Shown: in pieces, positions 57,120-62,753 of the stretch
Layout of the letters: the number at the start of each line of letters is the position of its first letter
Position numbering within the stretch: position 1 is the stretch's first letter
Assembly (NCBI RefSeq): GCF_030816915.1
Contig: NZ_JAUSYN010000002.1
Location: forward strand, 3,113,501 to 3,177,500
Length of the DNA: 64,000 bases
Source: Streptomyces sp. B3I8
Lineage (GTDB): Bacteria > Actinomycetota > Actinomycetes > Streptomycetales > Streptomycetaceae
Reading direction: 5' to 3'
The notes under the pieces: model-generated
What the model saw: the letters and a program-made list of their open reading frames with translations, nothing else
The model's database searches: none
What the model was told of the DNA's origin: nothing
Program-made: the position numbers and the translations under genes

Positions 57120-58847
<1,728 letters not shown>

Positions 58848-59117: not shown

Positions 59118-59321
59118 TCAGCCGGCAACGCGGACCATGTCCGCCTGCGGCCCCTTCTGACCCTGCGAGATCTCGAACTCGACCCGCTGGCCCTCTTCCA
59201 GAGTGCGGTAACCGTCCATCTGGATCGCGCTGTAGTGGACGAACACATCCGCACCACCGTCGACCGCGATGAAGCCGTACCCCTTCTCCGCGTTGAACCA
59301 CTTGACGGTGCCCTGAGCCAT
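59118..59321 (-). CDS. cold shock protein, CspA type
   Basis: A 67-residue single cold-shock domain: [17 protein letters not shown] (RNP1) and DVFVHYSAI (RNP2). It binds single-stranded RNA/DNA and melts mRNA structure. ATG at 59321 has GGGAG upstream. A 9-bp hairpin starts 30 bases upstream, and the 478-bp upstream region holds several palindromes and is less GC-rich than its surroundings, suggesting an elaborate leader or promoter. Confidence 0.95.
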
Positions 59322-59350
59322 GCCTAACTCCCCTATTACTGGCCCTTGCA

Positions 59351-59373
59351 CGGATCCGCACTTCGCGGATCCG
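59351..59373 (-). other. leader hairpin of the cold-shock gene
   Basis: CGGATCCGC (59351-59359) and GCGGATCCG (59365-59373) pair perfectly around a 5-nt loop, 30 bases upstream of the start codon. It may act in the mRNA leader. Confidence 0.55.
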
Positions 59374-59609: not shown

Positions 59610-59674
59610 ATTGCCGTCGCCCGGTCTCGGAAATCCGGGGTGCGTTCCCCAATTGTATCGCGCTCAATCATACA

Positions 59675-59713
59675 GAATTACCCCCTCCGCTTCTCTCGCG
59701 GAGGGGGTAATTC
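59675..59713. terminator. 16-bp perfect hairpin, terminator of the metM-metO transcript
   Basis: GAATTACCCCCTCCGC (59675-59690) pairs perfectly with GCGGAGGGGGTAATTC (59698-59713), 7-nt loop. It lies 87 bp beyond the stop of the sulfur-carrier gene and could work in both directions. Confidence 0.8.
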
Positions 59714-59799
59714 GTTCTACGCTGAGTGATCTGCATTACCGAGGGTAAGGGACGCGGAACGTGGACGCCGTCCGGCGCGTCCCGCCCGCCACGCCCGTC

Positions 59800-60075
59800 T
59801 CAGCCGCCGGCGACCGCGGGGATGATCGACACGCCCGCACCCTGCGGCGTCGCCGTGTCGAGCCCCTGCTCGAAGCGGACGTCGTCGTCGTTGACGTACA
59901 CGTTGACGAAACGGCGCAGCTTGCCCTGGTCGTCCAGGACCCGGGCGGCGATCCCGGTGTGGTTCTTCTCCAGGTCCGCGATGACCTCGCCGAGGGTCGT
60001 GCCCTCGGCGTCGACCTCGGCCTTGCCGCCGGTGTAGGTGCGCAGGATGGTGGGGATGCGAACGGTGACGCTCAT
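59800..60075 (-). CDS. metO: CysO/MoaD-like sulfur-carrier protein (MetO type)
   Basis: A 91-residue ubiquitin-fold protein ending PAVAGG, so the C-terminal Gly can be adenylated and thiocarboxylated. It is strikingly close to Mycobacterium CysO: VTVRIPTILRTYTGGKAEV, RRFVNVYVNDDDVRFEQGLDTAT. Here, however, no cysM lies beside it. It directly follows a threonine-synthase-like gene behind a SAM riboswitch. That is the layout of metM-metO of Streptomyces, where the carrier donates sulfur to O-phosphohomoserine to make homocysteine. Activation would need a MoeZ-like enzyme encoded elsewhere. Confidence 0.85.
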   Translation of the reverse strand: MSVTVRIPTILRTYTGGKAEVDAEGTTLGEVIADLEKNHTGIAARVLDDQGKLRRFVNVYVNDDDVRFEQGLDTATPQGAGVSIIPAVAGG

Positions 60076-60173
60076 GGGGGTGATGACCTCCGGTCGGGTG
60101 CGAGGGTGCCCGTAGGGGGGCGCTGTGGGGAAGGGGGGACGGCCGGTCCTGCCGCGCGAGGGCCGCGCGGGGG

Positions 60174-61493
60174 CTACGCGAGCCCCGCCTCCCGGAAGGA
60201 CTCCAGGGACGGCCGGATCGTCGCGGTGAGCCCCGTGCCCGCCACCGCGTCCAGCGTCTTGAGGCCGTCACCGGTGTTGAGGACGACGGTCGTCAGCGAC
60301 GGGTCGAGCACACCGGCCTCGATCAGCTTGCGCGTGACGCCGACCGTCACACCGCCGGCGGTCTCCGCGAAGATGCCCTCGGTCCGCGCCAGCAGCCGGA
60401 TCGCGTCGACGATCGCCTCGTCGTTCACGTCCTCCACCGCACCGCCCGTGCGGCGTGCGATGTCCAGCACGTAGGGGCCGTCGGCCGGGTTGCCGATCGC
60501 CAGCGACTTGGCGATCGTGTCCGGCTTCTGCGGCCGTACGACGTCGTGGCCCGCCTTGAACGCGGTCGACACCGGCGAACAGCCCTCCGCCTGGGCGCCG
60601 AAGATCTTGTACGGCCGGTCCTCGACGAGCCCGAGCTCGATCAGCTCCCGCAGCCCCTTGTCGATCTTCGTGAGCTGGGAGCCGGAGGCGATGGGCACCA
60701 CGAGCTGGTCGGGCAGCCGCCAGCCGAGCTGCTCGCAGATCTCGTACGCCAGCGTCTTGGAACCCTCGGCGTAGTACGGCCGCAGGTTGACGTTGACGAA
60801 GCCCCAGCCCTCGCCCGCCGGGTCGCCGATCAGCTCGGAGCAGAAACGGTTCACGTCGTCGTAGTTGCCCTCGATGCCGACGAGCTCGCCGCCGTAGATC
60901 GCGGCCATGACGACCTTGCCCTGCTCCAGGTCGTGCGGGATGAACACGCAGGAGCGGAAGCCGGCCCGGGCGGCGGCGGCACCCACCGCGCCGGCCAGGT
61001 TGCCGGTGGAGGAGCAGGACAGGGTGGTGAAGCCGAAGGCACGGGCGGCCTCGATGGCCTGGGCGACGACGCGGTCCTTGAAGGAGTGCGTCGGGTTGCC
61101 GGAGTCGTCCTTGATGTACAGCCCGCCGGTGACGCCGAGTTCACGGGCCAGGTTGTCGGCCTTGACGAGCTTGGTCCAGCCGGGGTTGATGTTCGGCTTC
61201 GTCGCCACGTCCGCCGGGACGGGCAGCAGCGGGGCGTACCGCCAGATGTTCGCGGGGCCCGCTTCGATGGTCCGGCGCAGTTCCTCGGTGTCGTGACCCG
61301 AGAAGTCGTAGGCGATCTCGAGCGGCCCGAAACATTCCTCGCAGGCGAACACGGGACCGAGCGGCACCCGGTGGCCGCATTCGCGGCAGCTCAGCGCGGC
61401 GGCCGGACCGAGATCGACGGACCCGGTGGCGGAAGGGGCGGAGGTGGCAGAAGTGGTGGAGCCGGTGGTGTCTTCGACAGTCTGCACAGCCAT
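60174..61493 (-). CDS. metM: threonine synthase-like PLP enzyme (ThrC family), probable MetM homocysteine synthase
   Basis: A 439-residue PLP fold-type II enzyme. An N-terminal zinc ribbon (Cys 36, 39, 51, 54: CREC...CEEC) precedes the ThrC body, with the PLP lysine at about residue 139 in HSFKDR and the STGNLAGAVGAAAARAG phosphate loop. Classical annotation is threonine synthase (thrC). Two facts argue for MetM, which makes homocysteine from O-phosphohomoserine: the leader is a SAM-I riboswitch, which controls methionine genes, and the next gene is a thiocarboxylate carrier. No hom or thrB is nearby, as would be expected at a threonine locus. If it is a plain ThrC, SAM control would be unusual. 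Confidence 0.9.
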   Translation of the reverse strand: MAVQTVEDTTGSTTSATSAPSATGSVDLGPAAALSCRECGHRVPLGPVFACEECFGPLEIAYDFSGHDTEELRRTIEAGPANIWRYAPLLPVPADVATKPNINPGWTKLVKADNLARELGVTGGLYIKDDSGNPTHSFKDRVVAQAIEAARAFGFTTLSCSSTGNLAGAVGAAAARAGFRSCVFIPHDLEQGKVVMAAIYGGELVGIEGNYDDVNRFCSELIGDPAGEGWGFVNVNLRPYYAEGSKTLAYEICEQLGWRLPDQLVVPIASGSQLTKIDKGLRELIELGLVEDRPYKIFGAQAEGCSPVSTAFKAGHDVVRPQKPDTIAKSLAIGNPADGPYVLDIARRTGGAVEDVNDEAIVDAIRLLARTEGIFAETAGGVTVGVTRKLIEAGVLDPSLTTVVLNTGDGLKTLDAVAGTGLTATIRPSLESFREAGLA

Positions 61494-61513
61494 GTGAGGC
61501 GAGGCCCTTTCTC

Positions 61514-61672
61514 CTCATCTTCCTCACGACGCATCTCGCCGTGAGACGGATTTGGCACCTTCCCTAGCCGGGAGCCTCGCGGAGTGATCGGGATTGATCA
61601 GCGATCTACGAGTGCCGGCTGGAGGGTTGCCGGGGCTTCATCGGGCCGTTTCCCTCTGCCCCTCTGGATGAG
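61514..61672 (-). promoter_or_regulatory. SAM-I (S-box) riboswitch
   Basis: Read on the minus strand from 61672. P1 CTCATC (61672-61667) pairs with GATGAG (61519-61514). Between them come the conserved blocks AGAGGGGCAGAGGGA, GGCCCGATGAAGCCC and CGGCAACC, a variable arm, then AGGGAAGGTGCCAAATCC and the P4 hairpin CTCACG/CGTGAG. These are the S-box core elements in order and spacing. After P1 only 20 bases remain to the start codon, so control is probably at translation. It lies in the 315-bp gap shared with gpgS. Confidence 0.95.
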
Positions 61673-61808
61673 CGGTATTCGGTTGTGGTGGCGCCGGTGG
61701 CCCCCGGCATGCGACGGCCATCTGCGTTGTTCAAGACTGTAACCGAAGGCCAGGACACTTGGACGAGTCGTCCGTACCGCGAGATGGATCACGAAGGAGC
61801 CACCGACC

Positions 61809-62753
61809 GTGCTGCAGGAAGTCGAGCATTGGCTGAAGGCGCGCTCGTGGTCGGTGGCGGACCGCCCGTTGCAGCAGGTCATGGCCGCCAAGCGGGCCAC
61901 CGGCCAGTCGGTCAGCGTGGTGCTCCCGGCGCTGGACGAGGAGGCGACCGTCGGCGAGATCGTGGCGACGATCCGCCGCGACCTGGTCCGGCGGGTGCCT
62001 CTCGTCGACGAGATCGTGGTCGTCGACTCCGGCTCCACCGACCGCACCGCCGAGGTGGCCGCGGCGGCGGGCGCCCGGGTCGTGCACCGTGACGCGATCC
62101 TGCCGCGCATCCCGGCCCTGCCCGGCAAGGGCGAGGTGCTGTGGCGCTCGCTGCTGGTCACGCGCGGCGACCTCGTCTGCTTCGTCGACGCCGATCTGCG
62201 CGCGTTCTCCTCCGACTTCGTCACCGGCATCGTCGGCCCGCTGCTGACCGACCCCGACGTGCACCTGGTCAAGGCGATGTACGACCGCCCGCTCGCCGGA
62301 GCCGCCGGACAGGGCGGCCGGGTCACCGAGCTGATGGCCCGGCCACTGCTCAACATGCACTGGCCGCTGCTGGCCGGCTTCGTCCAGCCGCTCGGCGGCG
62401 AGTACGCGGCCCGCCGCTCGCTGCTCGAACGGCTCCCGTTCCCGGTCGGCTACGGCGTCGAGCTCGGCATGCTGGTCGACGCGTTGCACACCGTCGGCCT
62501 CGACGCGCTCGCCCAGGTCGACGTCGGCGTACGCCACCACCGCCACCAGGACGGGCAGGCACTGGGCCGCATGGCCGCCGCGATCTACCGCACCGCCCAG
62601 CTCCGTCTGGCCCGCGGCCACCTTCTGCGCCCCGCCCTCACCCAGTTCGAACGCGGCCCGCAGGGCTTCGAGCCGCGCACCCATCCGGTGGACACGGAGG
62701 AGCGCCCGCCGATGACCGAGATCGCGGAGTACGCGGCGGGGAAGGTGGCGTAG
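61809..62753 (+). CDS. gpgS: glucosyl-3-phosphoglycerate synthase
   Basis: A 314-residue GT-A glycosyltransferase (family GT81). VSVVLPALDEEATVGEIV at the nucleotide-sugar site, VVDSGSTDRTAEVA, the metal-binding DADL (LVCFVDADLRAFSSDFV) and GGEYAARRSLLERLPFPVGYGVELG are family marks. It makes glucosyl-3-phosphoglycerate, precursor of glucosylglycerate (an osmolyte) or of methylglucose polysaccharides. GTG at 61809 has AAGGAG upstream. Divergent from the SAM-controlled metM; otsA follows. Confidence 0.92.
   Translation: MLQEVEHWLKARSWSVADRPLQQVMAAKRATGQSVSVVLPALDEEATVGEIVATIRRDLVRRVPLVDEIVVVDSGSTDRTAEVAAAAGARVVHRDAILPRIPALPGKGEVLWRSLLVTRGDLVCFVDADLRAFSSDFVTGIVGPLLTDPDVHLVKAMYDRPLAGAAGQGGRVTELMARPLLNMHWPLLAGFVQPLGGEYAARRSLLERLPFPVGYGVELGMLVDALHTVGLDALAQVDVGVRHHRHQDGQALGRMAAAIYRTAQLRLARGHLLRPALTQFERGPQGFEPRTHPVDTEERPPMTEIAEYAAGKVA

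Follow-up and report, generated by a model that had tools for sequence, protein, structure and literature searches.

Does a gene that passes for a threonine synthase make threonine when it lies behind a SAM riboswitch and in front of a sulfur carrier gene, or does it supply homocysteine for methionine? The question arises at one locus of a 64,000-nucleotide window, the whole stretch of Streptomyces sp. B3I8 DNA that was analysed, from a genome of 7.98 Mb whose nearest relatives, judged by the protein in question, are other Streptomyces. Hasebe, Adachi, Maruyama and Hamano reportedly described a MetM/MetO homocysteine pathway in Streptomyces in 2024 (AEM 90:e01247-24). We conclude that the locus is very probably the Streptomyces metM-metO unit, which would supply methionine synthesis with homocysteine and be controlled by a SAM riboswitch.

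Architecture of the metM-metO locus

The coordinates and parts that a first-pass annotation had given for the locus all proved right in open reading frame (ORF), covariance and domain searches. A SAM-I (S-box) riboswitch aptamer at 61512..61674 on the minus strand is followed on the same strand by metM (60174..61493), a gene for a ThrC-fold PLP enzyme recognised by its ORF, PF00291, TIGR00260 and linkage to SAM-I, and by metO (59800..60075), a gene for a CysO/ThiS-like sulfur carrier recognised by its ORF, PF02597 and a PDB match; metM and metO putatively share one transcript. For Streptomyces lividans, a published table likewise pairs a SAM-I element with two genes (PMC8079986, Table 3). Directly after the unit come genes for a cold-shock protein (59118-59351, minus strand) and a GroEL-type chaperonin (57120-58835, minus strand), both called by ORF and domain match, and a glycosyltransferase family 2 gene (61809-62753, plus strand; domain match) diverges from the riboswitch leader.

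The riboswitch itself, at 61674-61512 on the minus strand, scores 76.3 bits against RF00162 (gathering score 44.4, E 3.7e-16) over the full model (positions 1-108), which bears out the S-box that had been claimed. It is the sole gathering-level Rfam match within the window and the only RF00162 match genome-wide, and one of its stems is far longer than in the model (54 nt against 6). Covariance alignment and folding place the 5′ strand of the P1 helix, CUCAUC, at 61667..61672 and its 3′ strand, GAUGAG, at 61514..61519, both on the minus strand. The 3′ strand is immediately followed by GAGAAAGGG, which by its placement is likely the ribosome-binding stretch. With the metM start codon 20 nt past the P1 3′ strand, there is hardly any space for a separate terminator; in the 37 parsed of 38 loci (L034 was missed), the distance from P1 to the start codon, as chosen, is 8-22 nt. 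Putative SAM-dependent control would thus likely act at the level of metM translation. Going by this geometry and the published general pattern, plentiful SAM would bind the leader aptamer and stabilise P1; as the likely ribosome-binding stretch adjoins the 3′ strand of this helix, less metM would be translated. Folding calculations on the leader were no better than on shuffled sequences (z -0.93, with 36/200 as good) and put the cost of forcing P1 at about 1.3 kcal/mol. Whether P1 was forced or free, GAUGAG was mostly paired and the AGAAAGGG stretch mostly open, with no switch seen. Because these foldings demonstrated no switch, the evidence for the aptamer rests on the covariance score.

MetM (ORF 61493-60174, minus strand; 439 aa) agrees with its earlier description as a ThrC-fold PLP enzyme with an N-terminal ribbon. 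It carries PF00291, passes the TIGR00260 thrC model at 266.8-267.6 bits (cut-off 167.1) and reaches only 34.5 bits with the cysK model. The four cysteines of the ribbon (C36, C39, C51 and C54), which probably bind zinc, show no variation in 13 aligned actinobacterial proteins. By sequence, the nearest solved structures to MetM are threonine synthases, and the PLP motif NPTxSFKDR is common to MetM and ThrC.

At two other stretches, MetM departs from ThrC. The genome's own ThrC and two solved ThrCs carry SVNPxR[IL]EGQKT; compared with these three proteins, MetM does not have the stretches SVNPxRxEGQKT and GNAGN, which we take to define ThrC and to contact the phosphates of substrate and cofactor. 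At the EGQKT position all loci that could be parsed (37 of 38, including that of the window) have [VI]N[LV]RP[YF]Y[AG]EGSKT, and the GNAGN loop has become ASGSQ in the window's MetM. An EGSKT-type motif was found in 119 of the 120 homologues listed and in 79 of the 80 named Streptomyces loci, the sole difference in the two exceptions (P0089 and L140) being EGSKS. The comparison of pocket residues that had been envisaged was made with these three ThrCs. As sequence evidence, the diverged stretches would be compatible with an altered reaction on a common substrate, without amounting to proof of one.

The carrier, too, is CysO-like and ends in GG, as had been read from the DNA. MetO (ORF 60075-59800; 91 aa) contains PF02597, has the C-terminus AVAGG, is 57% identical to the CysO of its own genome, and finds its best PDB match in 3dwg (107 bits; listed as culture filtrate antigen cfp10A), presumably CysO. 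A carrier-like gene lies downstream of metM in 80/80 named Streptomyces loci and in 26 of the 29 parsed riboswitch loci of L032-L061; among the three misses, one had no remaining sequence and two had no recognised carrier within about 200 nt.

Past metO, the 16-bp hairpin described earlier is present at 59675..59713, 86 nt beyond the gene, with a stem without mismatch and a 7-nt loop. Folding of 59660-59760 gave a z of -6.4, and 0/200 shuffles were as stable. No canonical intrinsic terminator was reported there (the hairpin has no U-tract, and a terminator scan gave two sites, neither of which is this one); from its sequence and folding, it may end the unit as a U-less terminator.

Routes to homocysteine in the genome

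Were MetM the enzyme of homocysteine synthesis, a second ThrC beside hom and thrB would be expected elsewhere in the genome, and one was found in a hom-thrC-thrB cluster, where it reaches 325.9 bits with TIGR00260, higher than MetM, and is flanked by genes for homoserine dehydrogenase (557.4 bits) on one side and homoserine kinase (219.6 bits) on the other. The predicted absence of metA and metX also held in the genome, with no match to metA and, as the best match to metX, a 23.9-bit fragment. For metB and metY the genome came close to the same prediction. PF01053 has seven matches in the genome, four over the cut-off and three of them strong, and within the 25 top families listed per protein none of the three strong proteins passed any O-acetylhomoserine sulfhydrylase model, which agrees with the predicted lack of metY. 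Against the metB part, one strong protein passes PRK07811 'cystathionine gamma-synthase' at 682.6 bits (cut-off 513). Another passes a cystathionine gamma-lyase model (558.2 bits), and the third, queried without its ends, passed no cut-off among the best 25 families shown. One canonical-looking gene (the PRK07811 match) therefore remains, yet a supplier of acyl-homoserine was not found in the genome. Because a cystathionine beta-synthase is also present (706.1 bits), the PRK07811 protein may serve reverse transsulfuration. The genome further encodes a MoeZ-type protein that combines ThiF and rhodanese domains, and its only PF14464 JAMM match lies in a mec-cysO-cysM run.

From these components a route can be proposed. 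Judging from its family and the presence of its gene, the MoeZ-type enzyme would convert the C-terminal glycine of MetO to a thiocarboxylate. MetM would take O-phosphohomoserine from the hom/thrB branch and swap its phosphate for MetO-borne sulfur, yielding homocysteine, a reaction reported for S. albulus and extended to this locus by homology and context. The other ThrC, encoded in hom-thrC-thrB, would make threonine. The initial proposal that the locus makes homocysteine for methionine is thus supported by the separate hom-thrC-thrB cluster, by the failure to find metX or metA in the genome, and by a sole SAM-I aptamer that sits on metM.

Could MetM nevertheless be an ordinary second threonine synthase, an isozyme whose adjoining carrier serves something else? 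It does pass the thrC model at 266.8 bits, its nearest solved relatives are threonine synthases, and a homologue from Microcystis forms threonine in vitro, as stated in the excerpt of PMC12172450 on which we draw. According to the same excerpt, this relative is 51.6% identical to S. albulus MetM and adjoins a metO-like gene but has no riboswitch; an assay of the MetM type gave only an unidentified peak near methionine, and methionine in cells was not raised (PMC12172450). Homology alone therefore cannot settle the product. Context speaks against an isozyme, however: SAM-I sits on metM in 119/120 genomes listed in both searches, a hom-thrC-thrB run is present elsewhere, MetM departs from ThrC in the EGQKT and GNAGN stretches, and, with metX and metA not found, a homocysteine route would be missing. 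We regard a second threonine synthase as very unlikely.

The high score of the PRK07811 protein (682.6 bits with 'cystathionine gamma-synthase') raises another thought, that a plant-like route is the main one, in which this protein would join O-phosphohomoserine and cysteine into cystathionine for a beta-lyase to act on, with MetM secondary. With cystathionine beta-synthase and gamma-lyase both present, however, it fits reverse transsulfuration equally well, and it is metM that carries the one SAM-I aptamer of the genome; a plant-like main route strikes us as highly improbable. It is barely conceivable that MetM and MetO make cysteine, like CysM and CysO, from another phosphorylated substrate: a separate mec-cysO-cysM run exists in the genome, MetM scores 266.8 bits with thrC against 34.5 with cysK, and regulation by SAM sensing would be unusual if cysteine were the only product, even though MetO shares 57% identity with the CysO of the genome and best matches 3dwg (presumably CysO) among solved structures. 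Homocysteine synthesis by MetM and MetO remains our reading of the locus.

Distribution and annotation of metM

We surveyed 296 genomes of the class, calling metM present at E<=1e-100, metX at E<=1e-30, a JAMM protease (PF14464 only) at E<=1e-8 and SAM-I at E<=0.001. An E-value was used for metX because the curated cut-off of its model was reached in 0/296 genomes and 0/14 controls. A few of the metX matches score low and could represent different hydrolases. The SAM-I calls were also over the RF00162 family cut-off in 200/202 positive genomes; filtering in the large RNA searches was tightened, at the price of missing weak matches. Out of 595 confirmed stretches from a scan of genome contigs, the top 80 were retained, and these are all Streptomyces. 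By these thresholds, and with class-survey counts and Fisher tests that ignore shared ancestry, metM was found in 193/296 genomes, and SAM-I in 191 of the 193 genomes with metM vs 11 of the 103 without it. Of the 120 genomes that occur both among the 150 matches listed for metM and among the 150 listed for SAM-I, 119 have the aptamer immediately before metM in the same orientation (the exception is G074), and the aptamer pattern precedes metM in 80/80 named Streptomyces loci. Within the window's own genus, metM and SAM-I were both present in 28/28 genomes and metX in 8/28.

Across the class, metX was matched in 90/193 genomes with metM and in 93/103 without it, and 10/296 genomes had neither gene. 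With metX matched in so many metM genomes, MetM is often not the sole homocysteine route and is no strict replacement for metX; many species seem to hold two routes. SAM-I occurred without metM (E<=1e-100) in G002, G025, G031, G065, G076, G084, G248, G256, G266, G273 and G281.

The names attached to these genes tell a different story, and the warning in the first-pass annotation that the automatic labels, threonine synthase and MoaD/ThiS, would mislead was well founded. In the list of the best 120 homologues, all proteins that have a name (from Streptomyces and Kitasatospora) are called 'threonine synthase', and a 2021 study of S. lividans assigns a SAM-I element that precedes two genes to 'Threonine biosynthesis' (PMC8079986). 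In the excerpted text of PMC12172450, by comparison, MetM is named a homocysteine synthase of Streptomyces and metO is mentioned, S. albulus metM is said to have a SAM riboswitch upstream, and a citing sentence implies that S. albulus without metM is a methionine auxotroph. The locus is thus an already published system that had been correctly read, low in surprise and useful for annotation. With metM in 193/296 sampled genomes of the class and the names seen being threonine synthase, the error is a common one, and the riboswitch together with the motif N[LV]RP[YF]Y[AG]EGSK offers a straightforward means of correcting their label.

MetO tails, Mec and known systems

The C-terminal end of MetO varies among the 80 named Streptomyces loci, with exactly GG in 61, GGC in 18 and GGA in 1. 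The 19 loci whose MetO runs one codon past GG (L078, L091, L094, L114, L117, L119, L120, L122, L126-L129, L132, L135, L136 and L138-L141) do not form one clade on a quick MetM tree, on which the tails require at least 13 label changes (shuffled mean 17), with 5 changes forced by well-supported branches. The extra residue has been gained and lost repeatedly along this tree, and a one-codon tandem duplication ahead of the stop would account for the recurrent Cys. The CysO of the window's own genome (L023:835-1113, minus strand) ends AVAGGMR and, with residues after GG, would need trimming before charging, whereas the window's MetO, which ends at GG, would not.

As far as such carriers are known, one that ends GGC can be charged at its glycine only after trimming. 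In the GGC species, MetO should therefore be the target of a protease, for which Mec would be the obvious candidate. Mec frees cysteine from its carrier and may likewise free homocysteine from MetO. In the survey a JAMM protease was present in 189/193 genomes with metM vs 44/103 without it, and the four metM genomes in which it was not found are incomplete (78-86% complete). The co-occurrence of JAMM and metM and the tails one residue past GG suggest that the Mec of the cysteine pathway also serves MetO. We tentatively propose, as a possibility somewhat short of even, that methionine synthesis by MetM and MetO needs the cysO-cysM-linked Mec, which would release homocysteine from a MetO-homocysteine adduct and, in the Streptomyces whose MetO extends past GG, would before that cut off the additional residue; common inheritance with cysO-cysM is a rival cause of the co-occurrence. 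A literature search at the level of listings, outside the full text of the 2024 pathway paper, found no mention of Mec acting on MetO. If the proposal is true, one protease joins cysteine and methionine synthesis, and loss of mec should lead to methionine auxotrophy; the near-perfect company of metM and JAMM points to a test of homocysteine release.

Set beside known systems, the locus is closest to the MetM/MetO pathway of Hasebe and colleagues, from which we found no difference in a comparison by description. In the window, too, a ThrC homologue of the genus Streptomyces adjoins a CysO-like carrier ending in GG, and metM is preceded by a SAM riboswitch, as has been stated for S. albulus. Threonine synthase ThrC shares with MetM its fold family and NPTxSFKDR, but MetM has VNLRPYYAEGSKT where ThrC has SVNPVRIEGQKT, ASGSQ where ThrC has GNAGN, and an additional N-terminal cysteine ribbon.

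The leader resembles the SAM-I riboswitches whose P1 helix holds the ribosome-binding site in its 3′ side, as characterised by Barrick and Breaker 2007 (PMC2258182), in that the 3′ strand of P1 continues into the likely ribosome-binding stretch and the gap from P1 to the start codon is short. At 20 nt, however, that gap places the window slightly outside the rule given there for direct translational control, a start codon within 15 nt of P1 (PMC2258182), and the likely binding stretch reaches beyond P1. Unlike the RF00162 model, the window's aptamer has one much longer stem.

The CysM/CysO/Mec pathway, by which M. tuberculosis makes cysteine, offers a further parallel: there, as proposed here, a carrier protein gives sulfur to a PLP enzyme after MoeZ-type activation. 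The PLP partner in the window, in contrast, is ThrC-like rather than CysM-like, and the JAMM gene of the genome lies away from metM-metO, beside cysO-cysM.
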